NCBI GenBank assembly: GCA_001750925.1
Contig: MAXH01000255.1
Span: 1 to 34,053 of the forward strand
DNA length: 34,053 nt
DNA from: Desulfobulbaceae bacterium S3730MH12
GTDB lineage: Bacteria > Desulfobacterota > Desulfobulbia > Desulfobulbales > Desulfocapsaceae
Direction: 5' to 3'
The position numbers and the translations under genes were made by a program. The number at the start of each line of letters is the position of its first letter. The first letter of the stretch is position 1. The notes under the pieces are model-generated. The model saw nothing but the letters and a program-made list of their open reading frames with translations, had not been told where the DNA came from and searched no databases. Below are positions 8,145 through 31,917 of the stretch, piece after piece.

Positions 8145-8780
8145 ATGAAAATGGAGGATTTGGTTAAGGCTGTAATTGAAGGAAATGCTCCCGTAGTAAG
8201 TGATCTTGTTGTTCAAGGACTGAATGAAGGCCTGAAAGCGACTGATATTTTGGCAGAAGGGCTGACACCTGGCATGTCTACTGTTGGGGATCTTTTCCAC
8301 CGGGGAGAATATTTTCTCCCGGAAATGCTTTTTTCAGCGAAAGCCATGAAGGGTGGCTTGGAACATCTCGAGACGATTCTTTCAACAGGCGGTTCAGATG
8401 CTCTGGGCACAATTGTGCTTGGGACCGTCAAGGGAGATCTCCATGATATTGGAAAGAACATTGTCGCTATGCTTATGAAAGGAGCTGGATTTAATGTAAT
8501 TGATTTGGGTGTCGATATTCCGGTTGAACGATTTGTAGAAGCCCTTACTGAAGAAAAGGCTGATATTCTCGCTCTGTCTGCACTTTTGTCAACAACTATG
8601 CCTGCAATGGAGAGTACCGTAAAAGCAATAAAGGAATCCGGGCTCAAAGACAAAGTTAAGATCTTAGTCGGAGGGGCCCCGGTCACTCCAGAATTTGCTG
8701 ATGAAATCGGTGCAGACGGATATTCCGAAGATGCTCCTGGTGCGGTTAACAAGGTCAACGAGTTATTAGAATTGGTGTAA
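8145..8780 (+). CDS. Corrinoid (B12-binding) methyl-carrier protein, MtaC/MtvC type
   Basis: The 211-residue protein has the two-domain methyl-carrier layout. A helical cap domain covers about residues 1-85 and includes the GEYFLPEMLFSAKAM signature at 54-68. A Rossmann-type cobalamin domain follows, with GTVKGDLHDIGKNIVAMLM. The D-x-H-x-x-G motif is at 98-103, and His100 would be the lower cobalt ligand. The SALLSTTMPAM and VGGAPVTPEFADEIGADGY motifs of the family are also present. Such proteins shuttle a methyl group on cobalt between two methyltransferases. GGAG is eight bases before the ATG. It is the first gene of the operon, and the UroD-fold methyltransferase gene starts 23 bases downstream, the usual pairing of carrier and substrate-specific methyltransferase. 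Confidence 0.95.
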   Translation: MKMEDLVKAVIEGNAPVVSDLVVQGLNEGLKATDILAEGLTPGMSTVGDLFHRGEYFLPEMLFSAKAMKGGLEHLETILSTGGSDALGTIVLGTVKGDLHDIGKNIVAMLMKGAGFNVIDLGVDIPVERFVEALTEEKADILALSALLSTTMPAMESTVKAIKESGLKDKVKILVGGAPVTPEFADEIGADGYSEDAPGAVNKVNELLELV

Positions 8781-8803
8781 CAAAATTCTATTAAGGAAAA
8801 CAT

Positions 8804-9970
8804 ATGACAAAAAATAAAAAAACGATGACGAGGCGGGAAAGGGTCGTTGCGGCTTTGAACCACAAAGAGCCTGATCGTGTACCTTTGAGCATGTCTATTA
8901 CCATTCACGCATATGAAAACCTGAAACAACATCTTGGAATTGATTTAAAAGAAGATCTCAACCCGGGCAGATGGACAGAGGTGCCAATCCACCCTTCGGT
9001 TGCTGAAAAGTTCGGGCTTGATGTTTTATGGCTGCCTACTGGAAAAGCTCACAAAAAACCAAGGCAATCTAATGATCCTGACAAATGGTATGACGGATGG
9101 GGTGTGGAATGGACAAAAATATCTTTACCCACCGGAGGGTACTATAACGAGATGAGCTGCGCTCCGTTGAAGGATGCTACCATCGAGGATCTTGAGGATT
9201 TTGATTGGCCAGACCCTGCTGATCCTGGAATTGTAGAGGGTGTAAGGGAATATTATAAGCATATCCATAATGATACTGACTTCGCAATTTTAACTAAATT
9301 CGGCGGCGCTGTTTTTGAGCAGGCCTGGTATTTACGGGGTATGGAAAAGTTTTTATTGGATATGGTGGAAAATCCGGAGTTTGTCGAAGTTTTATTGACA
9401 AAAATAGCCAAGGTTCAGATGGGTTTTGACGAAGTGCTGATAGAGGCAACAGGTGAATATGTGGATATTCTACGCCTCAGTGGAGAAGATATGGGAACTC
9501 AGGAAAATCCTATCATTTCTCTTCCAATGTTTCGTCGTATGGTCAGGCCTCATTTAGAAAAATTGTGGCTTTATGCCAAAGGTAAATTGCTGCAAAAGAA
9601 TCCGAATGCCAAAATAATGTTGCACTCTTGCGGGGCTGTGAGCTCGTTTCTTCCAGACTGGATAGATATGAAGCTGGATGTTTTGGATCCAATTCAACCT
9701 AAGGCTAAGGGCATGGATCCTTTTGGTTTAAAAGCTGATTTTGGCGACAAACTGACATTCCATGGTGGTATTGATGCACAGCATGTGCTGCCTTTCGGTA
9801 CAACGGAAGAGGTTCGTGAACATACCAGGAAGTATATCAAAGCATTAGCTCCGGGAGGTGGTTTTATCTGCGCGCCGGTTCATAATGTTCAAGGGGATGT
9901 GCCTCCTGAAAACCTCGTTGCCATGCGAGACGCGGTTGAGGAGTTTGGATATTATCCGATTAATTTATAG
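8804..9970 (+). CDS. UroD-fold corrinoid methyltransferase (MtaA/CmuA/MtvB-like)
   Basis: The 388-residue protein belongs to the uroporphyrinogen decarboxylase superfamily, with the entry motif RRERVVAALNHKEPDRVPLSMS and the late LDPIQPKAKGMDPFGLKADFGDKLTFHGGID. It keeps a zinc-binding pattern like that of the methyltransferase branch: His274-x-Cys276 in IMLHSCGAV and Cys356 in GGGFICAPVHN. True UroD decarboxylases lack this. In that branch zinc activates the methyl acceptor or donor while a TIM barrel presents the methyl group to cobalamin. The corrinoid partner is encoded directly upstream. It could be the substrate demethylase (MT1) or the transferase to a carrier such as tetrahydrofolate (MT2), and sequence alone does not decide. 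AAGGA precedes the ATG. No second methyltransferase or reductive activator (RACo/RamA type) is in the window. Confidence 0.9.
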   Translation: MTKNKKTMTRRERVVAALNHKEPDRVPLSMSITIHAYENLKQHLGIDLKEDLNPGRWTEVPIHPSVAEKFGLDVLWLPTGKAHKKPRQSNDPDKWYDGWGVEWTKISLPTGGYYNEMSCAPLKDATIEDLEDFDWPDPADPGIVEGVREYYKHIHNDTDFAILTKFGGAVFEQAWYLRGMEKFLLDMVENPEFVEVLLTKIAKVQMGFDEVLIEATGEYVDILRLSGEDMGTQENPIISLPMFRRMVRPHLEKLWLYAKGKLLQKNPNAKIMLHSCGAVSSFLPDWIDMKLDVLDPIQPKAKGMDPFGLKADFGDKLTFHGGIDAQHVLPFGTTEEVREHTRKYIKALAPGGGFICAPVHNVQGDVPPENLVAMRDAVEEFGYYPINL

Positions 9971-15632: not shown

Positions 15633-17825
15633 CTATTTTAACTTGAAGACGACCTTATCCGGGCCATCTATCTTTTTAGGTTTAACCAGCTTAACCGCTG
15701 ACCCTTCCTCAAATACATCGTCATCCTTGAGCTGAAGCAATCCAAAAATTGAACCGGCTACATCTGGGAACTCTACCTGAACAAGGACTTTCTTCTTGTC
15801 CAGCAGATCCCCCTGGCGGTCTTCACAAACAACCGTAAAAGAGCGGATATAGCCCGAGCCGGGATTGATAGTCCTGGCGTCCTTCTCCGGGTCCAACATT
15901 GTAAAGCTCTCCTCATCGAACATTGCCGGCGGTATCATCACTTCGTCCCTTTCGGCGCAATATGTTCCGTTTATCTCGCCGTTGGCCAGGTCTGTATAGA
16001 ATTTCGAACCTCCCACACCAGCAGTATAGCGGTATGACAGTGGGATCTTGCCCAGTTTTTGGGACATAGACAATACGTCTACTTCCACTGGCTTGATCTG
16101 CTCGATATTCAATTTGGCCTTTTTGCGCCCGAGCGGTGCGAAGTACTTGATATCCAGAATATCGCCGGTACGTTTGGATTCAGACTTCCAGACCGCCTTG
16201 ACGCGCATACCGATTTTAACTTTCTTGGGATCAATATCACCGAGTTTATGTACCAGCCCCATATCTTCAACGATGCCGTCAAGTGCGATCACAGCGAAGA
16301 TGTTGACCTTACCTTTTGGCAGTGGAGAACTGTCCCAGTTGACATGAGAAATAGTGAAAGTTTTCACCACTCCAGTATCGGGAATGTTAAAGTAGTTAGT
16401 GACAGGTGCCAGATCGGCAATTTCAGAGAATGGACGAGCCGGTACCATCATGCGATTAGTGCGACTATCAAAACTGCCACGGATTTTACCTTTTTTGAGG
16501 CCGTCCAGGTAGGTTGAGATGGCAAATCCGTTATCCCAGGCGTAACGCAGATCTGGGGCGTCAGATATATTCGGTACGTCATCAACCGACTTGATAGGAG
16601 TACCCGGCAGGTCTTCCGGCTTCATATCATTCCAGCGCGATTTGGTAACCGGTGAAGCTCCATCGGATCCCATCACCACCACTGTGCCGGCCTGCATTAG
16701 ATCACCCCAGGCCTGGGCGACACCACGACGCAGCCTCCTCTGTAACTGTCGCTTGCCAGCCTGGCCGGACAGTTGAAAGTAGAGCTCAGCAATTTTCATG
16801 AGACCAGTGGCCGCGATCGGGTTTCCTACTCCCAATGCACCACCAGAAGGACATAAGGGATGGCTGCCGTCACGGTGCAGATTGCCCGATTCGAACAGAT
16901 CTTTCACTGTACGACCACTCTTGTCCAGAAGCAGTGCATTAAGATGGTGCAATGCTTTATAGTCGAAAGGATCGTATGGCTCGAAGAAATCTATATCACG
17001 TGCCGGATCGACGACTCCGGCCATCTTGTAAGCGTCCCTGGCAGCCATTGCCACATAGTCCGGGTAACAAAGATCCCGCGCACACCAGTAAGCAGTTTCA
17101 AGACGAAAACCAACGCCTTCAATGAAGACTGGGGCTTTTTTCAAAGTACGGGCAATGCGCTCATTAACCATGATGATAGCGACGGCGGCATCGGAGGTTG
17201 GGCTTATGTCAAGCCGCTTGACAGGCGAGGAGAGCACCGGAGAATTAAGCACATCATCTGCAGTTATGTCTACCGCAATCTGGGCTGCAGGGTGGTTCAG
17301 CGCGTTACGTTTAATCATTGCCGAGATTTCGGCAAGGTCGCGTTCGCTGTACCCGTAAACATGCATGAAGCGAGCCATTTCCAAGGCAAAGATATGAATC
17401 AGCGTCAGTTCAAGCGGCTGCTCGGTGACGCGGTCAAAGATTGTGATAAAAGCACCGGCAGGATGTGGAGTGCACGGAGACATTTTCTCTTCGGCGACGA
17501 CCATGCAGGAATTATATTTGCCGGAGGCAACATGCATCCATCCGTGGATCGGGCTCATTACACCGGTGGCACCACCGATGAAATGGCGCATATACGGTTT
17601 ATTGGCACCACCTGCACCGGCAATCAGGTGCTCGCCCTTCATGTGGACGCCATCAAAGGCATCAGGTGCGGTACCGAGGGTTACAGCATCGATATCATCA
17701 ATACTGAGACCAGCATCTTCCAGGGCCATGCGGACCGCCTGGGCTGCCAGTTCGCCAGGAGCCTCTTTGGCACGGCGCATGAATTTTGTCATCCCTACAC
17801 CAATAACAGCTACGCGATTACTCAT
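15633..17825 (-). CDS. Thiolase-fold protein fused to two DUF35-like domains
   Basis: About 730 residues. Residues 1 to about 400 form an SCP2-type thiolase fold (RVAVIGVGMTKFMRR ... VRMALEDAGLSIDDIDAVTLG ... NPIAATGLMKIAELYFQL). Two DUF35-like segments follow at about 420-560 and 597-730. Near residue 88, where thiolases have the nucleophilic Cys, the sequence is IGGATGVMSP. The usual GHP histidine is replaced by Asn (GVGNPIAATG, about 334). The first DUF35 has lost its zinc-ribbon cysteines (GKIRGSFDSRTNRMMVPARPF), and the second keeps one. Thiolase-fold/DUF35 pairs are known as retro-aldolases (Ltp2-ChsH2) or CoA-ester enzymes (BbsAB), so a non-thiolase C-C bond reaction on a CoA ester is plausible. 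The frame opens at 17924, but AGGAGG before 17825 and overlap with the upstream stop (ATGA) fix this start. Confidence 0.85.
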   Translation of the reverse strand: MSNRVAVIGVGMTKFMRRAKEAPGELAAQAVRMALEDAGLSIDDIDAVTLGTAPDAFDGVHMKGEHLIAGAGGANKPYMRHFIGGATGVMSPIHGWMHVASGKYNSCMVVAEEKMSPCTPHPAGAFITIFDRVTEQPLELTLIHIFALEMARFMHVYGYSERDLAEISAMIKRNALNHPAAQIAVDITADDVLNSPVLSSPVKRLDISPTSDAAVAIIMVNERIARTLKKAPVFIEGVGFRLETAYWCARDLCYPDYVAMAARDAYKMAGVVDPARDIDFFEPYDPFDYKALHHLNALLLDKSGRTVKDLFESGNLHRDGSHPLCPSGGALGVGNPIAATGLMKIAELYFQLSGQAGKRQLQRRLRRGVAQAWGDLMQAGTVVVMGSDGASPVTKSRWNDMKPEDLPGTPIKSVDDVPNISDAPDLRYAWDNGFAISTYLDGLKKGKIRGSFDSRTNRMMVPARPFSEIADLAPVTNYFNIPDTGVVKTFTISHVNWDSSPLPKGKVNIFAVIALDGIVEDMGLVHKLGDIDPKKVKIGMRVKAVWKSESKRTGDILDIKYFAPLGRKKAKLNIEQIKPVEVDVLSMSQKLGKIPLSYRYTAGVGGSKFYTDLANGEINGTYCAERDEVMIPPAMFDEESFTMLDPEKDARTINPGSGYIRSFTVVCEDRQGDLLDKKKVLVQVEFPDVAGSIFGLLQLKDDDVFEEGSAVKLVKPKKIDGPDKVVFKLK

Positions 17826-18928
17826 GATATCCTCCTTTCGCTGTCCAAAATGGCCACAGCGCAGGAATCGGTTGGGACTCCACGCCAGGCATGTACCAGT
17901 ACTCGCTCGGCCTCTACCTGACATGCGCCGGCTTCACCACGAAGCTGTGACAATGCTTCGTAGAGGCGCGCGCCGCCTGTGGCTTCAAAAAGGTCGCCGC
18001 CACCCAGGGCACCACCATTGGGATTGACAACCAGACCCGGGCTGCCGTTTAGACCCAGGGCCTCCAGATGCATTAATTGCCGATGCGCATAGGCATCGGA
18101 GACAAAGTACGCATCGATTTCTTCCTGTGGGGCTTTAATGCCCGATTCTTCATAGGCTCGCTCGGCCGCAATTGCCGTACCAGCTGAAAGGCTGTGATCA
18201 CGACGCTCGAGAATAGAATTGCCTGACCCCCAGCCAATGCCCGCGAAATAGGCCGGTTTACGTGCATATTTGCGGGCGGCCTCATCGGTGCCCAGTACTG
18301 CAATGATTGCACCGTCGGCGTGCTGAGCAAACATCAGTTCCGTCAATGGCTGTGCCACTGGACGGGCGTTAATGATATCCTCAATCGAGAAAGTGTCGCC
18401 ATAAGGAGATTTAGTGTCGGCGATAGCGGCTGCACGGTTTTTGACCACAACTTCAGCCACATCATCAATAGTAAAACCCGATTCACTCAGGAAGGAATTG
18501 AGTTCCAACCCTGCCAGCCAATGTGGTGACAGGCCGAACCGATTATATATAGGGTCGTAAGCGAATCGAATCATTTCATCCTTGGTCAACATATTCGAGG
18601 CCTTACTGTAAGACTCGACCACCAGAATATCGTAGCGTCCTGTCTCGATCTGCATGGCTGCCGATGCCACGGCATGCATAAAATCGCCAGGTATGGTGTA
18701 CACAGGTTTGCGCACCATGCCTAGCTGATCAGGAACGTACTCGTCGGCAATTGAGTAGCCTGAAGGAAAATCTTCTTCTGCAGATACTGCGCCGTCTATC
18801 AGATCGATCGTGACGCCCGCATCCCTATAAGCCATTTTGGCAGCTTTAGCAATCATCTCACGATACGACAGACTTGTCGACGTGGGAGTGAAGCCGCAGA
18901 TGCCCATTCCTAACAACGCAACGCCCAT
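17822..18928 (-). CDS. Thiolase-fold protein (SCP2-type), partner of the DUF35 fusion
   Basis: The 368-residue protein has the thiolase-like layout: VALLGMGICGFTPTSTSLSYREMIAKAAKMAYRDAGVTIDLIDGAV, then HAVASAAMQIETGRYDILVVES, a central HADGAIIAVLGTDEAA, and the C-terminal VNPNGGALGGGDLFEATGGARLYEAL ... PTDSCAVAIL. Neither catalytic signature is intact. The Cys position near residue 80 lies in TIPGDFMHAVAS, and the GHP motif reads GGD. A retained Cys occurs near the C-terminus. It ends in an ATGA overlap with the DUF35-fusion gene, so the two proteins are probably made in fixed ratio and may form a heteromer, as in Ltp/Chs- or Bbs-type complexes. Acyl-CoA or sterol-like substrates are possible; none can be named. 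Confidence 0.82.
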   Translation of the reverse strand: MGVALLGMGICGFTPTSTSLSYREMIAKAAKMAYRDAGVTIDLIDGAVSAEEDFPSGYSIADEYVPDQLGMVRKPVYTIPGDFMHAVASAAMQIETGRYDILVVESYSKASNMLTKDEMIRFAYDPIYNRFGLSPHWLAGLELNSFLSESGFTIDDVAEVVVKNRAAAIADTKSPYGDTFSIEDIINARPVAQPLTELMFAQHADGAIIAVLGTDEAARKYARKPAYFAGIGWGSGNSILERRDHSLSAGTAIAAERAYEESGIKAPQEEIDAYFVSDAYAHRQLMHLEALGLNGSPGLVVNPNGGALGGGDLFEATGGARLYEALSQLRGEAGACQVEAERVLVHAWRGVPTDSCAVAILDSERRIS

Positions 18929-19518: not shown

Positions 19519-19800
19519 CTATACATATCTAAAGACAAATACAAACCAACCAATCGCCAACGCGAGTCCGCCCCACAATGGCGCACCGAAAAAGGCGAGC
19601 CAGCCGAGGTTGATAAAACCGGTGCCAAGCCAGGAAATAAACAGTCGGTCGCCCCGCGTGGTGTCCAGACCGAATACGCCGTGCCTTGGATTTCCACCGG
19701 GGCTGTAACGTTCCCATACGCCCATGGCAACAATCGATAAGAATAAAATTATAAAGAAAGCAGCTGTTGGCCAGGTCCAGGCCATCCAGGATAAACCCAT
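19519..19800 (-). CDS. DUF2160 small membrane protein of the glycerol ABC importer
   Basis: A 93-residue protein with two or three hydrophobic segments: WTWPTAAFFIILFLSIVAMGVWERY at the N-terminus, then FISWLGTGFINLGWLAFFGAPLWGGLALAIGWFVFVFRYV. The middle is polar, with GGNPRHGVFGLDTTRGDRLF. This is the DUF2160 pattern, normally encoded next to GlpPQ permeases of GlpSTPQV-type systems. It starts 15 bases after the glpQ stop and is the last gene of the operon. Its role is not established; an accessory subunit of the transporter in the inner membrane is the simplest reading. GAGGG lies seven bases before the ATG. Confidence 0.88.
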   Translation of the reverse strand: MGLSWMAWTWPTAAFFIILFLSIVAMGVWERYSPGGNPRHGVFGLDTTRGDRLFISWLGTGFINLGWLAFFGAPLWGGLALAIGWFVFVFRYV

Positions 19801-19815
19801 AACATTACCCTCTGG

Positions 19816-20619
19816 TTAAACCCGCCCGAGCGCAAAGCCCTTGGCGATATAGTTACGAACAAAATATATGACGATCGCGCCGGGCAGGATAGTCAGCGAA
19901 CCCGCCGCAGCCAGCAGACCCAACTCGTAACCCGAACTGCTCGCCGTGCGCGTCATTGTCGCTGCGATCGGCTTGGCATCGACCGAGGTCAATGTTTTCG
20001 CCAGCAGCAGTTCAACCCACGAATACATGAAACAGAAAAACATGGCTACTCCTATGCCTGCCGCAATGGTCGGAATAAAAATACGTATAAAGAATCTCGG
20101 GAACGAATATCCATCCAGGTAAGCAGTTTCATCCAGCTCTTTTGGAATGCCGGACATAAAGCCTTCAAGTATCCAGACTGTGAGCGGTATATTAAACAGA
20201 CAGTGTGCCAATGCCACGGCGATATGGGTATCGAACAGACCGATTGCTGAATAGAGCTGGAAAAACGGTAGTGCAAATACCGCCGGTGGTGCCATGCGGT
20301 TGGTCAGCAGCCAGAAAAACAGGTGCTTGTCGCCGAGAAAGCGGTAACGGGAAAATGCATAAGCGGCCGGCAAGGCAACCGACACAGAGATCACGGTGTT
20401 AATCACCACATATATAATCGAATTGATGTAACCGTTATACCAGGTCGGGTCGGTAAAGATAACCTTATAATTAGCCAACGTAAACTGTTGCGGGAAAAAC
20501 GAAAAACCGCCGAGTATTTCGCCCGTGGTCTTAAATGACATGGCAAGCAGACCGTAAATCGGTAACATTAAAAACAGGATATACAGTGTCGGTACAAGCC
20601 ATTTTCTTGGATGGGTCAT
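19816..20619 (-). CDS. glpQ: Glycerol ABC importer permease GlpQ (MalG type)
   Basis: The 267-residue inner-membrane protein has about six membrane segments. The binding-protein-dependent permease (EAA) loop reads ELDETAYLDGYSFPRFFIRIFIPTIAAGIGVA and contacts the ATPase. YAFSRYRFLGDK is the other characteristic carbohydrate-permease motif. It forms a heterodimeric channel with GlpP. The GlpP stop and this ATG are one base apart, with GGAG inside the end of glpP, so the two are coupled. Its order among glpS, glpT, glpP and glpV matches the rhizobial glycerol importer. The assignment to glycerol rests on this order and the neighbouring glpK. Confidence 0.92.
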   Translation of the reverse strand: MTHPRKWLVPTLYILFLMLPIYGLLAMSFKTTGEILGGFSFFPQQFTLANYKVIFTDPTWYNGYINSIIYVVINTVISVSVALPAAYAFSRYRFLGDKHLFFWLLTNRMAPPAVFALPFFQLYSAIGLFDTHIAVALAHCLFNIPLTVWILEGFMSGIPKELDETAYLDGYSFPRFFIRIFIPTIAAGIGVAMFFCFMYSWVELLLAKTLTSVDAKPIAATMTRTASSSGYELGLLAAAGSLTILPGAIVIYFVRNYIAKGFALGRV

Positions 20620-20620
20620 A

Positions 20621-21484
20621 TTACTGCTCCTCGTTACGCATCATGAGAGTGTAGAACACCCAGCAGATCAGCAAAACCACCAGGAAGTAAATCAGGGACA
20701 TCGCTGCAGCCGGCCCCAGGTCGAACTGACCGAGCGCGATCTTTACCAAATCAATCGACAGGAAGGTAGTTGTGTTGCCGGGTCCTCCACCAGTTAACAC
20801 AAACGGTTCGGTATAGATCATGAAACTGTCCATGAAACGCAACAGGATAGCAATTGTCAGTACCCGTTTCATTTTCGGCAGCTGGATATAACGAAATATC
20901 GCCCAGCGGCTGGCGCCGTCGATATTCGCTGCCTGGTAGTAGTCATCGGGGATAGAACTCAATCCCGCGTAACAGAGCAGCACGATCAGCGATGTCCAGT
21001 GCCACACATCCATAAGCACGGTGGTCATCCAGGCTGACACAGGCTGCCTGGTAAAATTGTAATCAATACCCATTGAATTCAGGGTGTGGCCCAGCAGGCC
21101 GATATCGGGCAGCGCGAAAATATTCCACATGGCACCAACCACGTTCCACGGAATCAGCAACGGCAGCGCCATCAACACCAGGCAGACCGACACCCAAGGG
21201 CCTTTACGCGGCATGGTCAGCGCAACACCGATACCAAGCGGCACCTCAATCGCCAGAATCATGCCGGTATACAGCAGTTGACGTATGAGGGCATCGTGAA
21301 AACGATCCGAGCGCAACACCTGTTCGAACCAGGTCGTACCCTCCCAGAAAAACACATTGTTGCCAAAGGTTTCCTGGAAGGCATAATTGACCACCGTCAT
21401 CAGCGGAATAAATGCATTGAAGGCGACCAGTACCAGTACCGGCGCCACCAGCCACCAGGCTTTTTGATTCAATGTTTTATTCAT
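20621..21484 (-). CDS. glpP: Glycerol ABC importer permease GlpP (MalF type)
   Basis: A permease of about 287 residues and six membrane segments, with LVLVAFNAFIPLMTVVNYAFQETFG at the N-terminus. The EAA-type loop is YYQAANIDGASRWAIFRYIQLPKMKRVLTIAILLRFMDSF. The YAFQETFGN and VLTGGGPGNTTTFLSIDL stretches match MalF-like sugar permeases. The true start is the ATG at 21484, because GGAGG lies eight bases before it; a frame start at 21502 would need TTG. The gene overlaps the end of glpT by eight bases (ATGAATAA). With GlpQ it would make the transmembrane channel of the importer. Confidence 0.92.
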   Translation of the reverse strand: MNKTLNQKAWWLVAPVLVLVAFNAFIPLMTVVNYAFQETFGNNVFFWEGTTWFEQVLRSDRFHDALIRQLLYTGMILAIEVPLGIGVALTMPRKGPWVSVCLVLMALPLLIPWNVVGAMWNIFALPDIGLLGHTLNSMGIDYNFTRQPVSAWMTTVLMDVWHWTSLIVLLCYAGLSSIPDDYYQAANIDGASRWAIFRYIQLPKMKRVLTIAILLRFMDSFMIYTEPFVLTGGGPGNTTTFLSIDLVKIALGQFDLGPAAAMSLIYFLVVLLICWVFYTLMMRNEEQ

Positions 21485-22556
21485 TCTGCCCACCTCCAAC
21501 AAGCCAGTCGTCGCAAAAAATTCGTGTCATATCCGGGTTCAATTGGATTTTCGGACTTTCTGTCGGTATCGGCCGGTCTTCGTCAACCACCATTTTGATC
21601 ACTTCGGATTCGTGTTTGACAGTGACAACCTGATATCGGCCTAGATCTTCAATACTTTCAATAACAACCGGGATGCCATCATCGGCAAATTCAACAAACT
21701 CCGGTCGAATACCGACTTCAATCCTGCCGCTCAAATCATTGCTGACCGGATGAGAGGTGCTAAGGAGATTGCTATGAAAAACAGGCTGTCCCCGGTCAAT
21801 TTTACAGGGCAGGAAGTTCATGCCCGGTGAACCGATAAAATAACCGACAAATTTATGCTTTGGCCTGTTGAACAGTTCCACCGGGGTACCTACCTGCACT
21901 ACTGTTCCCTCAAACATGACCACTACCTTGTCAGCAAAGGTTAATGCCTCCACTTGGTCATGGGTAACGTAAATCATAGTTACGCCAATCTGCTGGTGCA
22001 ATTCCTTCAGTTTCGAGCGAAGCTGCCATTTCAGATGTGGATCGATAACCGTCAATGGTTCATCGAACAGGATCGCATTGACATCAGAACGTACCAACCC
22101 CCGACCCAGAGAAATTTTCTGCTTACCGTCTGCTGTCAGGCCGGATGCCCTCTTGTTAAGATTGGCGGTCAGATCAAGCATCTCTGCAATCTGGTCGACA
22201 CGTAGTTTTACAGCGGTTTCATCCATTCCCCGGTTACGTAAGGGAAATGCAAGATTGTCAAATACTGTCATGGTGTCGTAGACCACGGGAAACTGAAACA
22301 CCTGAGCAATACGTCTGTCTGGAGTGGGCAGATGTGTCACATCCTGATCATCAAAATAGATTTCGCCTTCAGAAGGCGTCAGCAAACCGGAAATGGTGTT
22401 CAGCAGAGTTGTCTTACCGCAACCTGAAGGACCAAGCAGAGCATAAGCACCTCCATCTTCCCATATTTGATTGACTTCTTTAAGTGCATACACCGGTTTC
22501 TGACCCTTGGGTGGCGGGTAAGCATGCTGTACATTTTTAAATCTGATTCTTGCCAT
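21477..22556 (-). CDS. glpT: Glycerol ABC importer ATPase GlpT
   Basis: The 359-residue cytosolic ABC subunit has Walker A LLGPSGCGKTTLLNTISG, Walker B NAILFDEPLTVIDPH and the switch His in IYVTHDQVEALT. The signature is LTADGKQKISLGRGLV instead of LSGGQ. That variant is, from memory, typical of GlpT of glycerol importers, so it is not a defect. A C-terminal TOBE-type regulatory domain follows (VGIRPEFVEFADDGIPVVIESIEDLGRYQVVTVKH). It probably pairs with GlpS. It overlaps glpP and lies 53 bases behind glpS. The name is not to be confused with the G3P/phosphate antiporter GlpT. Confidence 0.9.
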   Translation of the reverse strand: MARIRFKNVQHAYPPPKGQKPVYALKEVNQIWEDGGAYALLGPSGCGKTTLLNTISGLLTPSEGEIYFDDQDVTHLPTPDRRIAQVFQFPVVYDTMTVFDNLAFPLRNRGMDETAVKLRVDQIAEMLDLTANLNKRASGLTADGKQKISLGRGLVRSDVNAILFDEPLTVIDPHLKWQLRSKLKELHQQIGVTMIYVTHDQVEALTFADKVVVMFEGTVVQVGTPVELFNRPKHKFVGYFIGSPGMNFLPCKIDRGQPVFHSNLLSTSHPVSNDLSGRIEVGIRPEFVEFADDGIPVVIESIEDLGRYQVVTVKHESEVIKMVVDEDRPIPTESPKIQLNPDMTRIFCDDWLVGGGQNE

Positions 22557-22609
22557 GTTACAACCTGTCTGAATTCGTCATGTCAGTCTAATCGAACGAA
22601 GATGGGGAA

Positions 22610-23662
22610 TTAGATAAGCTTATTATCAGCTCCGAAATACATACAGTGATCAGCATTAAAGACAAAACGAGCCTTTTCACCAAATTTGTAGGAATGAATG
22701 CCGCGAGTTTCGCAGACCCAGACATTGTCTTCCACATTTATACGAATAATACTGTCCGAGCCACTGATCTCAGCAATCTGGACAATACCTTTGACTTCGA
22801 CACCCTGCCCTTCAGGTAACAGATGGTGAGGCCGCAGGGCAATCTTGTAATTTCCATCAGGCAGAGACGCCAGTTGTCCCGTAAGTTTCCAGGAAACAGT
22901 TTCACCCAGATAAGCCATTTGTCCGCGTTTCTTAATGGCAGCAGTGTTAATCGGTGGATCTGAGAACACTTCTGCACTTTCAAGCGTTGCAGGCTTCCGA
23001 TAAATCGAGGCAGTCTCTCCAAACTGAACAACGCGGCCTTCTTTGAGTGTTGCAGTGTGACCACCCAACATCAAAGCCTCAAGTGGTTCAGTGGTGGCGT
23101 AAACCACGGTAGCCCCTGTATCAGCGAACAACTTTGGTAAATCGTCCCGCAATTCTTCGCGCAGCTTATAGTCAAGATTGGCTAACGGTTCATCCAGTAA
23201 TACGAGTTCAGTGCCTTTGACAAGTGCCCTTGCTAAAGCCGTTCTTTGCTGTTGTCCGCCTGAAAGTTCACTCGGCAGACGATTGAGCATGGGCGTCAGT
23301 TTTAACAGGTCGGCGAAGCGGTGAACCTTCTCTTTGATAGCATTTTTAGACAGGCCGGCAACTTTTAAAGGTGAGGCAATATTGTCATAGACCGAAAAAC
23401 TGGGGTAATTGATAAAAGCCTGGTAAACCATGGCAACACTGCGTTTCTGTACCGCAACTCCGGTCACGTTCCGATCTTTGGTCCAGATCTCTCCCGTCGT
23501 TGGTTTTTCCAGTCCTGCCATTAACCGCATCAGGGTAGTTTTACCACTGAGTGTAGTACCTAAAAGAATATTAAATCCACCGGGTTTAAGTACCAGATTC
23601 GTTTCATATATATGCGTCTCCGCCCCAACCCGAAATGTTACATCTCTTAATTCAATAGTCAT
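22610..23662 (-). CDS. glpS: Glycerol ABC importer ATPase GlpS
   Basis: The 350-residue ABC ATPase has a Walker A of the GlpS type, LLGTTLSGKTTLMRLMAGL. The signature ELSGGQQQRTALARALV is intact, and Walker B is LVLLDEPLANLDYKLREELR. The switch position reads VVYATTEPLEALM with Thr where His is usual, so this site may be catalytically weak and GlpT may supply the active histidine. A TOBE-like C-terminus ends the protein. AGGG is eight bases before the ATG. It is the second gene of the operon after glpV, separated from it by a 213-base gap holding a hairpin. Confidence 0.9.
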   Translation of the reverse strand: MTIELRDVTFRVGAETHIYETNLVLKPGGFNILLGTTLSGKTTLMRLMAGLEKPTTGEIWTKDRNVTGVAVQKRSVAMVYQAFINYPSFSVYDNIASPLKVAGLSKNAIKEKVHRFADLLKLTPMLNRLPSELSGGQQQRTALARALVKGTELVLLDEPLANLDYKLREELRDDLPKLFADTGATVVYATTEPLEALMLGGHTATLKEGRVVQFGETASIYRKPATLESAEVFSDPPINTAAIKKRGQMAYLGETVSWKLTGQLASLPDGNYKIALRPHHLLPEGQGVEVKGIVQIAEISGSDSIIRINVEDNVWVCETRGIHSYKFGEKARFVFNADHCMYFGADNKLI

Positions 23663-23812
23663 TCAGCCATCCCTTATGTGATATTATTAGTTATCACCAG
23701 CATATCACTGTGGTCTACTAAAAATTCCGCTACACGTTCTGTAGTTGTTCCAATGTTAATATACGTTGAAGAATTATCCGGGATGATTATATCGCAATGT
23801 TTTTAATAACCA

Positions 23813-23839
23813 TGGGGCCTGCTTTTATTACAGGCCCCA
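23813..23839 (-). terminator. Intercistronic hairpin between glpV and glpS
   Basis: TGGGGCCTG (23813-23821) pairs with CAGGCCCCA (23831-23839), a perfect nine-base-pair stem with a nine-base loop. It lies 37 bases after the glpV stop on the minus strand. An AT-rich but not pure-T stretch follows. Partial termination here would give more binding protein than transporter subunits. Confidence 0.65.
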
Positions 23840-23875
23840 CGGTCCCGACACTTATCTTTGGTTATTTACCGGATA

Positions 23876-25606
23876 CTATTTCTTCCAGCGTTTAACCAGT
23901 TCATCATAGCTGATGGTCTCTCCCTGTGGCTTTTCATTGTCAACCTTAGCCTTGGGTGAACCGGGCTTACTGAGCCATTCGTTCGGATCACTTTTCGGAT
24001 TCAGGCGCGGACCACAACCACCATAGGTGTTGGCTTTTTCATCTGCTTTCTGCATACGCGCCATAACCAGATCCATTTCTTCAGCCAGACGATCCATAGC
24101 CTGCTGTGGAGTAAATGCACCGGAGTTAACATCACCTATCTGCTGCCACCAGATTTGTGCCAACTTGGGATAATCAGGCACGTTGACACCGGTGGGTGAC
24201 CACATAACCCTGTCAGGTGAGCGATAAAATTCAACCAGCCCGCCAAGCTTAGGTGCACGCTCAGTAAATGAGTCATGATTGATGGTGCTTTCACGAATAA
24301 ATGTCAGGCCGACATGGCTTTTCTTGACATCCACGGTCTTAGAGACCACAAACTGTGCATACAGCCACGCAGCTTTACGACGGTCAACAGGCGTTGACTT
24401 GAACAATGTCCAGGAACCGGCATCCTGATAGCCCAGTTTCTGTCCTTCCACCCAGTAAGGACCATGTGGAGAGGGAGCCATGCGCCATAGCGGCTTACCA
24501 CTGTCGTCAACGGTATTATTACCTTCGGACTTAGGGGCCACCATGGATGCGGTGAATGCAGTGTACCAGAAAATTTGCTGAGCTACGTTACCTTGTGACA
24601 GGGCAGGCAGAGACTGATAAAAATCATAACTGGCCGCACCAGGAGGAGCATATTTACGAAGCCACTCATCCCATTTACGAATGGCGTAAACAGCGGCAGG
24701 TCCATTCGCAGCACCACCGCGTGAAACTGAAGCACCCACAGGGTTGCAGCTGCCTTTTTCCATACGAATACCCCATTCATCTACTGGGATACCATTGGGT
24801 AAACCTTTGCTGCCGGCCCCGGCCATGGATAACCATGCATCTGTCATACGCCAGCCAAGGTCTGGAGCACGCTTACCGTAATCCATATGTCCAAAAACTT
24901 TTACACCATCAATTTCTTTGACTTTAACCGAAAAGAATTCAGCAATATCTTCATAAGCTGACCAGTTAACGGGTACGCCTAGATCGTAGCCATAGATTTC
25001 TTTGAATTTCTTTTGCAGCTCAGGACGATCGAACCAGTCTTTACGGAACCAGTACAGGTTGGCAAACTGCTGATCAGGTAATTGATAGAGCTTACCATCA
25101 GGTCCGGTAGTAAATGATTTACCTACGAAGTCATCCACATCCAGCGATGGATTGGTGACATCTTTACCTTCGCCACCCATCCAGTCCGACAGGTTAACTG
25201 CCAGTTGCAGGCGAGAATGAGTACCAATTAAATCTGAATCGTTGATATAAGCATCATACAGATTTCGCTTGGTCTGCATCTGTGTTTGAACGGCCTGGAC
25301 TACTTCACCTTCACCAAGCAACTGGTGGTTGACTTTAATTCCGGTGATTTCTTCGAAGGCTTTGGTAAGTATTTTGGACTCATATTCATGTGTTGGAATC
25401 GTTTCCGATAACACATTAATTTCCATACCATTGAAAGGTTTGGCAGCGTTAACGAACCACTCCATTTCCTTCAGCTGTTCACTTTCAGATAAAGCTGATG
25501 GTTGGAATTCATCATTAACCCATTTTTTTGCCTCGTCCATACCGGCGTAGACATTTTGAACGCTCAGTGCAGCTACAGCAGCAATCAATGCAAACTTCTT
25601 CAACAT
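23876..25606 (-). CDS. glpV: Glycerol ABC importer substrate-binding protein GlpV
   Basis: A secreted protein of about 576 residues. The signal peptide is MLKKFALIAAVAALSVQNVYAG, cleaved around residue 22. The mature protein has an extracellular-solute-binding (family 1) fold, with MEINVLSETIPTHEYESKILTKAFEEITGIKVNHQLLGEGEV near the start and YQLPDQQFANLYWFRKDWFDRPELQKKF. The length of about 570 fits GlpV-type proteins and exceeds most sugar-binding proteins. The frame opens at 25675, but TAGGAGGAG lies six bases before the ATG at 25606 and the signal peptide begins there. It heads the operon, with its own promoter-like region upstream. Glycerol as ligand is inferred from the operon and from glpK. 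Confidence 0.92.
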   Translation of the reverse strand: MLKKFALIAAVAALSVQNVYAGMDEAKKWVNDEFQPSALSESEQLKEMEWFVNAAKPFNGMEINVLSETIPTHEYESKILTKAFEEITGIKVNHQLLGEGEVVQAVQTQMQTKRNLYDAYINDSDLIGTHSRLQLAVNLSDWMGGEGKDVTNPSLDVDDFVGKSFTTGPDGKLYQLPDQQFANLYWFRKDWFDRPELQKKFKEIYGYDLGVPVNWSAYEDIAEFFSVKVKEIDGVKVFGHMDYGKRAPDLGWRMTDAWLSMAGAGSKGLPNGIPVDEWGIRMEKGSCNPVGASVSRGGAANGPAAVYAIRKWDEWLRKYAPPGAASYDFYQSLPALSQGNVAQQIFWYTAFTASMVAPKSEGNNTVDDSGKPLWRMAPSPHGPYWVEGQKLGYQDAGSWTLFKSTPVDRRKAAWLYAQFVVSKTVDVKKSHVGLTFIRESTINHDSFTERAPKLGGLVEFYRSPDRVMWSPTGVNVPDYPKLAQIWWQQIGDVNSGAFTPQQAMDRLAEEMDLVMARMQKADEKANTYGGCGPRLNPKSDPNEWLSKPGSPKAKVDNEKPQGETISYDELVKRWKK

Positions 25607-25640
25607 GAGGTCTCCTCCTATATCTATTGGTTGATCTGAT

Positions 25641-25675
25641 TTGCGAAAAATACACTCGCTTTTTCGCAATGTCAA
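25641..25675 (-). promoter_or_regulatory. glpV core promoter with an operator in the spacer
   Basis: On the minus strand TTGACA is at 25675-25670 and a -10-like TATTTT at 25652-25647, a 17-base spacing. TTGCGAAAAA (25641-25650) and TTTTTCGCAA (25660-25669) form a perfect ten-base inverted repeat that fills the spacer. A bound repressor would block polymerase. GlpR is the natural candidate, not proven. Confidence 0.6.
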
Positions 25676-25680
25676 TTATA

Positions 25681-25848
25681 ATGAACTCGTAAAAAAGTCG
25701 ATTGCAGCTATAGATGGCTAAGTTAAAAAGTTTGATATACAAGGCGCAGTGTTTTTATCAGTGCTGAGACAATACATATGGTATGTCCCGGTGCTGATAA
25801 AAACCTGCAACGCCGTAGATCGAACTTTTTACGACGCCATCAATTATA
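25681..25848. mobile_element. MITE/REP-like palindromic repeat, copy 1, with 9-bp flanking direct repeats
   Basis: The ends are imperfect inverted repeats: AACTCGTAAAAAAGTCGAT at the left, and the complement of TGATGGCGTCGTAAAAAG at the right. A central dyad joins TTTTTATCAG and CTGATAAAAA. The nine bases TCAATTATA occur at 25672-25680 and again at 25840-25848, as for a target-site duplication. A shorter related copy lies at 30452-30570 in the opposite orientation. No coding frame is inside, so any transposase would act in trans. Confidence 0.7.
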
Positions 25849-25849
25849 C

Positions 25850-25870
25850 ATTTTCGAAATGTTCGAAAAT
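25850..25870. promoter_or_regulatory. Palindrome upstream of glpV, possible second operator
   Basis: ATTTTCGAA (25850-25858) and TTCGAAAAT (25862-25870) form a nine-base inverted repeat around ATG. It shares CGAAAA half-sites with the spacer dyad at 25641-25669. Without the inserted repeat the two centres would be about 37 bases apart. It could be a GlpR site or an activator site. Confidence 0.4.
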
Positions 25871-26202
25871 TGATAAGTAATCGCTCAATGAGTTCATTCT
25901 AACTTTTCCAGAATATCACTCCTTTCCCCATTAATCCCAAATAACCTATCATTTTTTTGCCGCTTTTCCCATAAGTTCTTTGCAAACTTCAACCACTCAA
26001 TACAAAAAACAGGTTGACGACATATACCGTAACCCGACAAGTCGGAAAACTTTTTAGTTACGCTGGTTAAGTGCCTTGATACAGAGATTAACCACTTGAA
26101 TTAAATAGCACTTTAGATTTTCTTGTTTTTTATTACAGCTTTTATTGAGTAAGGCACTAAACTGTTTTTGTATTTTACAGGAATTTTATCAGGAGAAATA
26201 CA
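25871..26202 (+). other. Leader region upstream of glpK
   Basis: No gene is visible. It begins with the GATAAGTAATCGCT block also found upstream of the thiolase pair. Further on are a CCGAC/GTCGG dyad (26034-26045) and inverted arms AGTGCCTT (26070-26077) and AAGGCACT (26151-26158) with 73 bases between. The arms may fold in a glpK leader RNA. No known riboswitch was recognised. Confidence 0.3.
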
Positions 26203-27699
26203 ATGCCGGCACATATACTTGCAATTGACCAGGGAACAACCTCCAGCCGTGCAATTATCTTTAATGATCAGTTTGAGATAATCGCATCAGCTCAGCAGGA
26301 ATTTGAACAGTTTTTTCCACAATCCGGCTGGGTAGAACATGACCCCGAGGAAATCTGGAGCAGTACTCTTGCCACCTGCCAAAAGGCGCTGAAAAAATCA
26401 GCCCTCTCTGTCATCGATATTGCAGCTATCGGCATCACAAATCAGAGAGAGACCACTGTCGTCTGGGATAGAGATACAGGAAAGACTATTCATAAAGCTA
26501 TTGTATGGCAGGATCGCAGAACCGCAGAGTTCTGTCGAAAGTTAAAGGACTCCGGACATGAGCAGATGATTACCTCGAAAACCGGACTCCTGCTAGACCC
26601 CTATTTTTCAGGCACCAAGCTCCACTGGATCCTTAATAATGTTGAAGGGGCTAAAGAAAATGCAGAAGCAGGAAAGCTCGCCTTCGGCACCATCGACACT
26701 TTTCTCCTCTGGCGGCTGACCGGCGGAAAAGAGCACTTAACGGATGCCACCAATGCCTCCCGTACAATGCTCTACAATATCCACGATAACAGATGGGATA
26801 AAGAACTCCTGGAACTCCTCGACATTCCACTATCACTTCTACCAGAAGTAAAAGATTCCTCTGCCGATTTCGGCGTCACTGATAAGACCCTTTTTGGTGA
26901 TTCAATCCCCATTCGCGGGATCGCCGGCGACCAACAGTCAGCGCTGGTAGGTCAGGCATGTTTTGAGCCGGGAATGATTAAGTCCACCTATGGCACCGGT
27001 TGCTTTATTGTGCTCAATACCGGTGAACAGGCTGTCATATCAACCAATAAATTACTCACTACCATCGGCTATCGATTAAACGGAGTCACAACCTATGCCC
27101 TTGAAGGCTCCATCTTTGTAGCAGGAGCGGCAGTCCAGTGGATGCGGGATGCAATGGGGCTTATTAAGACCGCCTCAGACACTGGTTCACTTGCCCGCCA
27201 GGCTGATGTTAACCAGGACGTTTATCTGGTACCTGCCTTTACCGGACTTGGGGCACCTCACTGGGATCCTGATGCCCGTGGAGCAATCTTCGGTATCACC
27301 AGAGCAACAGGCCCCGCGGAACTCTCACGGGCAGCGCTTGAATCTGTCTGCTACCAGACCCGCGACCTTCTTGACGCAATGCGGGGAGACTGGAAAGAGA
27401 TGGGGGAGACGGTACTGAGAGTGGATGGCGGCATGGTGGCCTCAAATTATACCATGCAGTTTCTCGCAGATATCCTCAGTGCGCCTGTTGACCGGCCAAT
27501 AGTTCTTGAAACAACAGCAGTGGGTGCAGCCTACCTTGCCGGGTTGTACGGGGGGATCTTCCCGCCTCCAGCAGAATTGGGTACTACATGGAAACGGGAC
27601 AGGCGCTTTGAACCTTCCCTGGCTGAAGAGCTGAGAATGAGAAAGTACAACGGCTGGAAGGATGCTGTCAGCAGGACTTTGACTGTCAAAGAAGAATAG
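26203..27699 (+). CDS. glpK: Glycerol kinase
   Basis: The 498 residues match the usual GlpK length. It phosphorylates glycerol to sn-glycerol-3-phosphate with ATP. The N-terminal FGGY loop is [16 protein letters not shown]. The glycerol-site motifs are [31 protein letters not shown] and [13 protein letters not shown], and the catalytic-base region is [26 protein letters not shown] and the C-terminal [20 protein letters not shown] complete the ATP site. AGGAG lies before the ATG. The glycerol ABC importer is encoded divergently upstream and glpABC downstream, so it is the metabolic link between import and oxidation. No glpF facilitator gene is in the window. Confidence 0.98.
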
Positions 27700-27757
27700 A
27701 ACTCATATAACTCATGATGCTATCTAGTGTATCACTGATGGAACCAGGTGTACCATA

Positions 27758-28582
27758 TTAACGACAGCTCGAGGCATCACCACGTTTCCCGCAAGCTCCC
27801 CTGGCATCACAGTTTACATAACCATTCGGACATGGCCTTTGTCGATCATAGTCCCAGAAAATATTTCCAGGAGGATGCCCGCCACTGCCACCTCCCCTAT
27901 TTCGACAGGTGGCCTCATTGCCCCGGCGCCCACAATCACCGGAAGCGTCGCAGTTCACGTAGCCGCGGGCACAAGGCCTGTTGGCACTGTAATCCCAATA
28001 GATATCTCCACGGGGATGAGAAGGAGCCCTGTCCCCTTCCCAGTTGCCATTGTTCTGACCACCCTGATTACAGTCAAAATTGGGGGTATACATAATGGAT
28101 GCATAGCGCCCCTGGGTGGTGCGAACGGCTATACACTGGCGGCTTCGATTATCACGCCAATAGCTGTAGGCACTGTAGCCCGACTTGTCGGTGCGAATCC
28201 ACCTGTACCCACGGTGCTCCATCTGTCTTTCGGCATCACGTCCTTTGGCACCGATCAAATCCTGCAAATTAGGGACCTGTCCCTGACCATAGTCGGCTCC
28301 AGGCGATGAATAACTTGAGCGGCCAACGGTAAACTCAGCACGACACCCCCTGTCAACCCAGATCCCACCTCGATCGTAGCCCCAGGTTCTCCCTTCAATG
28401 CACTCATGTGACGAAAGCTGCCGACTCAGCCTGACCTGATCTTCCGTATTAACCCGGCAGTATGTATATTGAGAGTCACGACTGCTACAGGTTATATAGC
28501 GTGAATCCGCCCAAAGCGGGTGAGAAAAAAGCAGTATAGCAATGGCAACAAAAAACACTTTAGATGACATATTAGAACTCAT
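27758..28582 (-). CDS. Secreted Cys-rich protein with a DUF3011-like domain and C-terminal repeats
   Basis: A 274-residue protein with a signal peptide (MSSNMSSKVFFVAIAILLFSHPLWA). A DUF3011-like part follows at about 30-90: ITCSSRDSQYTYCRVN, LSRQLSSHECIEGRTWGYDRGGIWVDRGCRAEFTVG. A middle region holds DLIGAKGRDAERQMEHRGYRWI and YSYWRDNRSRQCIAV. The C-terminus has two copies of a roughly 30-residue unit, G(D/N)I(Y/F)WDY..(N/Q)RPC..GYVNCDA.G.CG(R/K)RG, with four cysteines each. Its function is unknown; disulfide-rich periplasmic or outer-surface placement is likely. GGGGGG lies close before the ATG. It points against glpK and glpA, so it is an intruder in the glycerol cluster. A Fur-box-like site upstream suggests iron control. 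Confidence 0.75.
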   Translation of the reverse strand: MSSNMSSKVFFVAIAILLFSHPLWADSRYITCSSRDSQYTYCRVNTEDQVRLSRQLSSHECIEGRTWGYDRGGIWVDRGCRAEFTVGRSSYSSPGADYGQGQVPNLQDLIGAKGRDAERQMEHRGYRWIRTDKSGYSAYSYWRDNRSRQCIAVRTTQGRYASIMYTPNFDCNQGGQNNGNWEGDRAPSHPRGDIYWDYSANRPCARGYVNCDASGDCGRRGNEATCRNRGGGSGGHPPGNIFWDYDRQRPCPNGYVNCDARGACGKRGDASSCR

Positions 28583-28633
28583 TTAAGCCCCCCGACAAAA
28601 ATAATAAGAGACTGCTGCAGCAGCACATCTCAA

Positions 28634-28652
28634 TATAATGATAATCAATATC
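28634..28652 (-). promoter_or_regulatory. Fur-box-like site upstream of the secreted DUF3011 protein
   Basis: TATAATGATAATCAATATC matches the classical Fur consensus GATAATGATAATCATTATC at 17 of 19 positions. It lies 52 bases upstream of the minus-strand start at 28582, a normal distance for repression. It is about 215 bases from glpA, so that gene is the less likely target. Confidence 0.65.
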
Positions 28653-28774
28653 ATTCATACTATCGATTGAGTTTTGCAATGTCAAGAAGATTTAATTTTG
28701 GTAATTGATATTGCAGTAATGATCTTTGCCAATCATAATGGCGCCGTAAAAGTTTCGGCTACAGCTGAGTCTAC

Positions 28775-28786
28775 TTTCGAACGAAA
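28775..28786 (+). promoter_or_regulatory. Small TTTCG/CGAAA dyad upstream of glpA
   Basis: TTTCG (28775-28779) and CGAAA (28782-28786) flank AA, some 80 bases before the glpA start. The half-sites resemble those in the glpV dyads. It is a possible GlpR site, but short enough to occur by chance. Confidence 0.3.
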
Positions 28787-28867
28787 TTTATACGATTTTC
28801 ACTTGAACTATTCAGTTAACTGGATTACACATTATCAGAGATAAAAATTCTGCCACCCTTCAGCAAC

Positions 28868-30454
28868 ATGACACAAAAACCTAAAGAACAGAGAATTGAA
28901 ACTGAAGTCCTGATAATCGGTGCTGGTGTTACCGGTGCGGGTATCATGCGCGACCTTGCACTCAGGGGAGTGCAATCCCTTCTTATAGACAGAAAGGATC
29001 TGTGCGCAGGTGCATCCGGCGGAAACCATGGCCTGCTCCATTCAGGAAGCAGGTATATCTCCAGTGATCTTCATTCCGCAATTGAATGCAGGGAGGAAAG
29101 CACTATCCTCAAGCATGTCGCCTCTCAATGCATTGAAGAGACAGGGGGACTTTTTGTTGCTGTCGAAGGCGATGATCCCGGCTTTGCGGAGAACTTTGCT
29201 GCATTGTGCCAGCCGGCAGGAATAGCCTGTGATCAAATCTCCTGCGCTGATGCGAAAAAACTCGAACCGCTGTTATCCGATAGGCTCTTCAAAGCATACA
29301 GAGTCCCGGACGCAACTATCGATCCATTTCGTCTGGCACTGCTCAATGTAGCTCATGCTCAAATGCTGAATAACAGTTCTTTTCGCCCCCATACCGAAAT
29401 TCTCCTCTTCACTGTCAAAGATGGAAAAATAGAGAGTGCAACATGCAGGGATAACCGGACAAACACCACCCTAACTATTTACGCCAAACAGTATATAAAT
29501 GCAGGCGGAGCCTGGGCCATGAACATCGCTCAGCTGGCCGGCTGTAAAGATGTCAGTCTGCTCTACTCCAAAGGAACCCTGCTTGTCAGCCATGACCGTT
29601 TAACAACCCATGTGATCAACCGATTACGGCCTCCAGGTGACGGTGACATCCTGGTACCCGGAGGAACTGTATCCGTTCTCGGCACCACCTCGATACGTGT
29701 CGACGATCTTGAAACGGTCAAGCCGACTGTTGCAGAAATTGATATCAACGTCCGGGAAGGAGCCGCCATGATACCGACTCTTGCAGCAGCCCGGTATATC
29801 AGGGCATTTTCCGGAGTACGTCCCCTCCTGCAGTCCGCAGGCGGCAGTGACGACAGAGAAGCAACCAGGGGGTTTGCCCTCCTGGACCACTCCACACAAA
29901 ACCTTTCTAATTTCAGTACAATAACGGGTGGTAAACTGACCACTTACAGACTGATGGCTGAGAAAACATGCGACCTGGTTGCCGAACGACTGAATAACAG
30001 CGAGCCATGTCAAACCCATATAACTCCTCTGCCCGACGAAGAAAGTTGCAAATGGACTGAACCCGGAGCTTCACCAAAATACTGGTACAAAGCCAATGAC
30101 CCCGAAGACATGATTCTTTGTGAATGTGAAATGGTACCTCAGTCGGCAATAGATGAAATTGTCAAGGATGCACCCGGTGCCGAAAAAGAGATGACCCTTA
30201 AAGCCATTGCTCTCAGATCCCGTGCAGGCAAGGGTCCGTGCCAGGGTTCATTCTGCGGTATCCGTATTGCCTCCTACCTCTATGACCAGGGCCATTACCA
30301 CGATACAACAGGACTTATCCATATGCGTGATTTCTTTAACGAACGTTTCAAAGGAACACGCACCGTCACTTGGGGCCTGCAGGCTGCCCAGATGGAACTG
30401 GCGGAAGCATTGCATTGTGGGTTGCTGGGGCTGGATAATATCAATGATGATTGA
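28868..30454 (+). CDS. glpA: Anaerobic glycerol-3-phosphate dehydrogenase subunit A
   Basis: The 528-residue FAD enzyme oxidises glycerol-3-phosphate to dihydroxyacetone phosphate in the GlpABC complex. The FAD motif is VLIIGAGVTGAGIMRDLALRG, followed by IDRKDLCAGASGGNHGLLHSGSRYISSD, typical of GlpA. FSTITGGKLTTYRLMAEKTCDLV is the C-terminal substrate/FAD region. The tail carries a BFD-like [2Fe-2S] domain, with ILCECEMV and SRAGKGPCQGSFCGIR supplying four cysteines. Length agrees with E. coli GlpA (about 540). No good ribosome-binding site is seen before the ATG. The stop codon TGA is at the same time the first three bases of a palindromic repeat, so the gene end may have been set by an insertion. 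Confidence 0.93.
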   Translation: MTQKPKEQRIETEVLIIGAGVTGAGIMRDLALRGVQSLLIDRKDLCAGASGGNHGLLHSGSRYISSDLHSAIECREESTILKHVASQCIEETGGLFVAVEGDDPGFAENFAALCQPAGIACDQISCADAKKLEPLLSDRLFKAYRVPDATIDPFRLALLNVAHAQMLNNSSFRPHTEILLFTVKDGKIESATCRDNRTNTTLTIYAKQYINAGGAWAMNIAQLAGCKDVSLLYSKGTLLVSHDRLTTHVINRLRPPGDGDILVPGGTVSVLGTTSIRVDDLETVKPTVAEIDINVREGAAMIPTLAAARYIRAFSGVRPLLQSAGGSDDREATRGFALLDHSTQNLSNFSTITGGKLTTYRLMAEKTCDLVAERLNNSEPCQTHITPLPDEESCKWTEPGASPKYWYKANDPEDMILCECEMVPQSAIDEIVKDAPGAEKEMTLKAIALRSRAGKGPCQGSFCGIRIASYLYDQGHYHDTTGLIHMRDFFNERFKGTRTVTWGLQAAQMELAEALHCGLLGLDNINDD

Positions 30455-30570: not shown

Positions 30571-30605
30571 ACTGAACAACAAGGTTTTACCTGGAGATGT
30601 AGTAC

Positions 30606-31889: not shown

Positions 31890-31917
31890 AAGGTTCCTGG
31901 CTTCACAAGGAAGTGGC

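Follow-up and report, generated by a model that had tools for sequence, protein, structure and literature searches.

What reaction, if any, is left to thiolase-fold proteins that have lost the catalytic residues of a thiolase? The question is raised by two genes in the window (the whole 34,053-nucleotide stretch of Desulfobulbaceae bacterium S3730MH12 DNA analysed here), both on the minus strand. The upstream gene, thl2 (17822..18928), encodes a 368-aa partner subunit with a Pfam Thiolase_C_1 match. The second gene (15633-17825, 730 aa) is a fusion of a thiolase-fold domain, thl1 (residues 1-392, 16650..17825), with the domains DUF35a (residues 393-560, 16146..16649) and DUF35b (residues 561-730, 15636..16145). 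The listed first-ATG open reading frame of the fusion (15633-17924, 763 aa) starts too early, and we corrected its start to the ATG at 17825 (MSNRVAVIG...), a start context that recurs in relatives. With this start, the thl2 stop and the fusion ATG share the ATGA overlap (17822..17825) that the first-pass annotation had claimed.

The glycerol and sugar transport genes around the pair give no functional hint. The segment at 19519-33195 looks like a glycerol uptake/oxidation system, in which a sugar/glycerol-3-phosphate-type ABC transporter with two ATPases and a membrane protein ORF of 93 aa comes before glycerol-kinase-like and glycerol-3-phosphate-dehydrogenase-like genes. In the segment at 8145-9970, genes for an MtgC-like corrinoid protein and an MtaA/CmuA-like methyltransferase come ahead of a ribose-type ABC transporter and an FGGY kinase, a set that suggests a one-carbon or methylated-compound uptake module.

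Alignment with relatives confirmed the initial impression that both proteins have lost the nucleophilic cysteine and the histidine of the GHP motif. In thl1 the cysteine site is a glycine (GGATG in the fusion, GG[A/G]TG across relatives) and GHP has become GNP, with Asn335 at the His348 position invariant in 23 archaeal and bacterial relatives. The window thl2 has no cysteine at the site, and GGD, with Asp, at the GHP position. The Cys and His expected of a thiolase acting as an acyltransferase are thus absent from the pair. Other parts of thl1 are also strongly conserved: Y284-D-P-F is invariant in all 23 aligned sequences, and the motifs Y284-D-P-F-D-Y-K-x-L-H293-H294, L-G-V-G-N335-P-I-A-A and W373-G-D are invariant or nearly so, with H293, H294, K290, R250 and W373 as further invariant residues. 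Tyr284 aligns with the catalytic tyrosine of the steroid retro-aldolases Ltp2 (YDHF) and Sal (YDCY), and N335 with Ltp2 Tyr344, Sal Gln352 and the His348 position. Both residues were mapped through an Ltp2-like plasmid protein, and it is because this protein has the correct Tyr-Tyr spacing of 50 that Y284 is placed at the base position and N335 at the Tyr344/Gln352/His348 position. Ltp2 and Sal use this YDHF/YDCY tyrosine as the base to deprotonate the beta-hydroxyl, with Tyr344 as the general acid of Ltp2 and Cys304 as that of Sal (PMC12329534). Neither acid is kept in thl1, which has Asn335 at the position of Ltp2 Tyr344 and Pro286 at that of Sal Cys304.

The partner subunit is more diverged. 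It scores 322 bits against NCBIfam PRK06066, under the cut-off of 516, and its AlphaFold model (pLDDT 78) has SCP2-thiolase, the thiolase of the HMG-CoA-synthase complex, Ltp2 and Sal as close folds. Its histidine position varies among relatives, with Asp as a trait of the Desulfobulbales and of a more distant deltaproteobacterial MAG (L012), and H, N, Y, W or R elsewhere. Because this active-site position varies, thl2 resembles a pseudo-enzyme and is probably a mostly structural, non-catalytic partner.

The DUF35 domains had been described as two in number with mostly lost zinc cysteines, and this is what we found: DUF35a retains none of the four and DUF35b only C622. The CxxC...CxxC pattern is kept in 55 of 57 unfused DUF35 relatives; the zinc ribbon of the DUF35 partner is intact in these and in L012 and lost in the Desulfobulbales fusions. 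For the window fusion, Pfam detects one OB domain, the first (OB_ChsH2_C, 8e-11), and DUF35b was placed by BLAST alignment with unfused DUF35b proteins. DUF35a is 40-47% identical to several unfused DUF35a proteins. The structure model of the whole fusion is of low confidence (pLDDT 47 for the thiolase part), and the DUF35 part of this model matches the DUF35 structures 3irb and 6ok1_B.

An assembly error as the source of the fusion can be ruled out. The same fusion, with the partner gene directly upstream, occurs in nine other Desulfobulbales MAGs at 85-98% identity (in one of them, L014, the contig ends inside DUF35a), and L012 also has it. The thiolase domain has a dN/dS of 0.02-0.03, and the values for the DUF35 domains range over 0.02-0.12. 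The recurrence in MAGs and the low ratio in the thiolase domain argue that the fusion is due neither to chance nor to misassembly. The L012 homologue (64%) has both zinc ribbons intact, with two OB_ChsH2_C and two zinc-ribbon matches in Pfam. Its fused thl1-DUF35a-DUF35b gene (L012:8001-10199) is intermediate between separate genes and the zinc-less Desulfobulbales form, and likely shows that fusion came before zinc loss.

Elsewhere the parts are unfused: in SAR324, Chloroflexota, Thaumarchaeota, Bathyarchaeota, Sulfolobales-like and other Thermoproteota, and other Desulfobacterota, where the Sulfolobales label rests on a Sulfolobus acidocaldarius control match and match scores. The unfused genes usually stand in the order thl2-thl1-DUF35a-DUF35b, and nearly all complete loci include DUF35 partners. 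This distribution is most simply explained by an ancestral four-gene operon, followed by fusion and then by zinc loss. At a threshold of E up to 1e-100, a search for thl1 gave matches in 50 of 250 sampled Thermoproteota and in 18 of 395 Desulfobacterota. The architecture that the first-pass annotation called distinctive, a double-DUF35 fusion, is therefore real but is a derived form of a widespread four-gene system, so that the enzyme is not peculiar to the fusion.

We then placed the pair among known thiolase-fold proteins. In a phylogenetic tree thl1 and thl2 are sister paralogue clades next to NP-motif plasmid enzymes, and form a separate branch inside a Cys-less clade (support 99/94) that includes the Ltp2-like protein, a proxy for Ltp2 that sits on a long branch, and lies apart from the Cys thiolases. 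By score thl1 belongs to NCBIfam PRK06065 (NF004721; 539 bits, cut-off 455), so the thiolase subunit is already catalogued; however, that family has no function attached and omits the partner, the DUF35 genes and the fusion. The steroid side-chain aldolase Ltp2-ChsH2 (PDB 6ok1) has in common with thl1 the thiolase fold, the replacement of Cys by Gly, the YDxF catalytic-Tyr motif, a DUF35 partner (ChsH2) and acyl-CoA dehydrogenase neighbours, but it has one thiolase subunit and one DUF35, a steroid context, and YDHF and Tyr344 where thl1 has YDPF and Asn335. The bile-acid aldolase Sal-Shy (PDB 9myr, PMC12329534), in which Shy is the DUF35 protein, is likewise Cys-less with a Tyr base in YDxx, and has an amide residue, Gln, at the thl1 Asn position. 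It differs in its steroid substrates, in having no second thiolase subunit, and in the acid Cys304 of YDCY, which is Pro in thl1.

Also related are heteromers on plasmids of Rhodococcus qingshengii (pLP1) and Simplicispira suum, the sister clade of thl1/thl2, in which a thl1-like protein with the NP motif occurs with a DUF35 protein and a short thiolase-like partner (~303 aa) just upstream. They are 33-38% identical, have a truncated partner and a single adjoining DUF35, and are uncharacterised. The Rhodococcus enzyme also adjoins two acyl-CoA dehydrogenases and two MaoC hydratases, in the ACAD-hydratase-aldolase order. On the Simplicispira plasmid (L130, 5084-9319), the NP-motif pair neighbours an Ltp2-like YDHF protein, both having a DUF35-type gene of their own, together with SDR and branched-chain transporter genes in what is probably an undescribed catabolic cluster. 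The BbsAB benzoylsuccinyl-CoA thiolase, the PhlABC acyltransferase and the archaeal thiolase/HMG-CoA synthase complex also combine thiolase-fold subunits with DUF35, but they use a catalytic Cys that thl1 and thl2 lack. We consider the system a new branch of Cys-less, DUF35-dependent thiolase-fold enzymes composed of two paralogues and two DUF35 domains, probably retro-aldolases. A retro-aldolase had been suggested at the outset, and the tyrosine of YDPF, the glycine in place of cysteine and the position in the tree all point that way.

Acyl-CoA dehydrogenases are the most constant neighbours of the complex, occurring beside it in Desulfobulbales, Anaerolineae, Thaumarchaeota, Sulfolobales-type and other Thermoproteota, and other Desulfobacterota. 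The one in Desulfofustis is an isovaleryl-CoA dehydrogenase (620 bits to 4o5m), at a locus that also has an acetoacetate-CoA ligase and an XRE-type regulator; those of most other lineages are of short-chain rather than isovaleryl type. In the window genome, a separate contig (L033) carries the acetoacetate-CoA ligase as well as a dehydrogenase of short-chain type. A true acetoacetate-CoA ligase, a dehydrogenase and the complex form a single gene run in L096-L098, while Sulfolobales-type loci have an acetate-CoA-ligase-like enzyme and one Anaerolineae locus a CoA transferase. Most of the operons encode no hydratase. A hydantoinase-like gene near the complex (L087) was not recurrent at the loci. 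In one Desulfobacterota group the complex lies within a mutase cluster (adenosyltransferase, mutase large and small subunits, MeaB), and the adjoining mutase subunits have a Phe and a Gln that we take to be the isobutyryl-CoA mutase pattern. Clusters of this type are known (PMC5017805).

We propose, as a reading with about an even chance of being correct, that the thl pair is a heteromeric, Cys-independent retro-aldolase of the Ltp2/Sal kind acting on short branched beta-hydroxyacyl-CoAs. In this scheme thl1 would be the catalytic subunit, and Tyr284 of YDPF would act as the base, deprotonating the beta-hydroxyl group of a 3-hydroxyacyl-CoA, after which the C2-C3 bond would break to give acetyl-CoA (or propionyl-CoA) and a ketone or aldehyde. 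As a diverged and mostly structural partner, thl2 would complete the heteromer, and the two DUF35 domains, fused and zinc-less in the Desulfobulbales, may staple the complex together and shape the acyl-CoA cleft. The substrate would most likely be a short branched acyl-CoA formed by the acyl-CoA dehydrogenase next to the complex and by a hydratase from elsewhere in the genome. The strongest single candidate is 3-hydroxyisovaleryl-CoA, cleaved to acetone and acetyl-CoA, which would provide an isovalerate/leucine route that needs neither methylcrotonyl-CoA carboxylase nor HMG-CoA lyase. The lack of a hydratase in most operons counts against a retro-aldolase, as does the Pro of YDPF where known aldolases have His or Cys. 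The short-chain rather than isovaleryl type of the dehydrogenases in most other lineages is a further point against the proposal. The recurrent acetoacetate-CoA ligase neighbour would be more in keeping with acetoacetate than with acetone, which counts against the acetone route, and the choice of 3-hydroxyisovaleryl-CoA leaves both this ligase and the mutase neighbours unexplained. Acetone carboxylase gamma (PF08882) was detected in none of 30 genomes, but controls were equally silent, so this result is uninformative. A literature search turned up no link between a DUF35/thiolase complex and either HMG-CoA cleavage or acetone.

One alternative is a different Cys-independent acyl-CoA reaction, for example one in concert with the adjacent B12-dependent mutase, a decarboxylation or an isomerisation. 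The complex adjoins isobutyryl-CoA-mutase-like subunits, an adenosyltransferase and MeaB in other Desulfobacterota and in the Bathyarchaeota-like L090, and the invariant H293, H294, K290, R250 and W373 of thl1 suggest a distinct active site. However, the YDxF tyrosine is retained, the tree groups thl1 with aldolases, and most other loci have no mutase cluster; we regard such a reaction as unlikely, if still a serious contender.

A non-orthologous HMG-CoA lyase, cleaving HMG-CoA from leucine breakdown to acetyl-CoA and acetoacetate that the neighbouring ligase would activate, was the leading idea as long as only the ligase and isovaleryl-CoA dehydrogenase neighbours were considered. Desulfobulbales, Thaumarchaeota and L096-L098 have the ligase beside the complex, and it scores over the cut-off in 15 of 21 complex-bearing genomes versus 0 of 14 controls; the isovaleryl-CoA dehydrogenase of Desulfofustis is also a neighbour, the classical lyase is missing from 16 of the 21, and methylcrotonyl-CoA carboxylase lies beside the complex in two Chloroflexi. 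The carboxylase survey, in which the query was the beta subunit from L018, verified as the methylcrotonyl-CoA type, disfavours this idea. The beta subunit was not found in 88 of 93 distinct complex-bearing genomes, a count that rests partly on incomplete MAGs and related genomes. In the first set 5 of 21 genomes had it, whereas it was absent from all 9 further complex-bearing Anaerolineae and from all of 64 other genomes; one genome is counted in two of these three sets. Without methylcrotonyl-CoA carboxylase there would be no HMG-CoA from leucine, which argues against an HMG-CoA lyase. Moreover, 35 of 36 carboxylase-bearing Anaerolineae genomes are without the complex, the carboxyltransferase tested from the Desulfobulbales (Desulfofustis) is of propionyl type, and no intact thl1 frame was found in the two Chloroflexi with an adjoining carboxylase. 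We now think an HMG-CoA lyase improbable.

Some further observations concern HMG-CoA lyase itself. About 26 of the 36 carboxylase-bearing Anaerolineae genomes have no recognisable HMG-CoA lyase, and all but one of these also lack the thl complex. L024 has a CitE-like gene in the vicinity of its carboxylase genes. A SAR324 methylcrotonyl-CoA carboxylase operon contains an AtuA-family (PF07287) gene (L111:14225-16003), in a genome with no HMG-CoA lyase over the family cut-off. In Desulfofustis and relatives (L028-L032), an HMGL-like enzyme is encoded apart from the leucine genes, accompanied by a ThDP enzyme, an IclR-like regulator and a gene resembling aldehyde dehydrogenase.

Finally, a binding or scaffold complex without catalysis is very unlikely in our judgement. 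The loss of both the thiolase Cys and His, and of the zinc ribbons in the Desulfobulbales lineage, would fit it, but thl1 pocket residues are invariant across two domains of life while those of thl2 drift, and dN/dS in the thl1 domain is 0.02-0.03.

Returning to the retro-aldolase, the isovalerate route of Desulfococcus multivorans uses the carboxylase and HMG-CoA lyase (PMC5109826). Since the carboxylase is missing from most complex-bearing genomes, branched acids there need another route. A tentative and rather doubtful possibility is that isovaleryl-CoA and other beta-methyl acyl-CoAs are degraded by a route avoiding both biotin carboxylation and HMG-CoA lyase. Here an enzyme of two thiolase and two DUF35 parts, common to archaea and bacteria, would act after dehydrogenation and hydration and split the tertiary alcohol by a retro-aldol cut into acetyl-CoA and a methyl ketone (acetone). 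The system is annotated only as 'thiolase domain-containing protein'; it occurs in about one fifth of the sampled Thermoproteota and, in scattered fashion, among anaerobic bacteria. Should the aldolase proposal be correct, the system would supply a missing step in the breakdown of protein-derived branched acids in these organisms, and would extend steroid-type retro-aldol chemistry to central catabolism.
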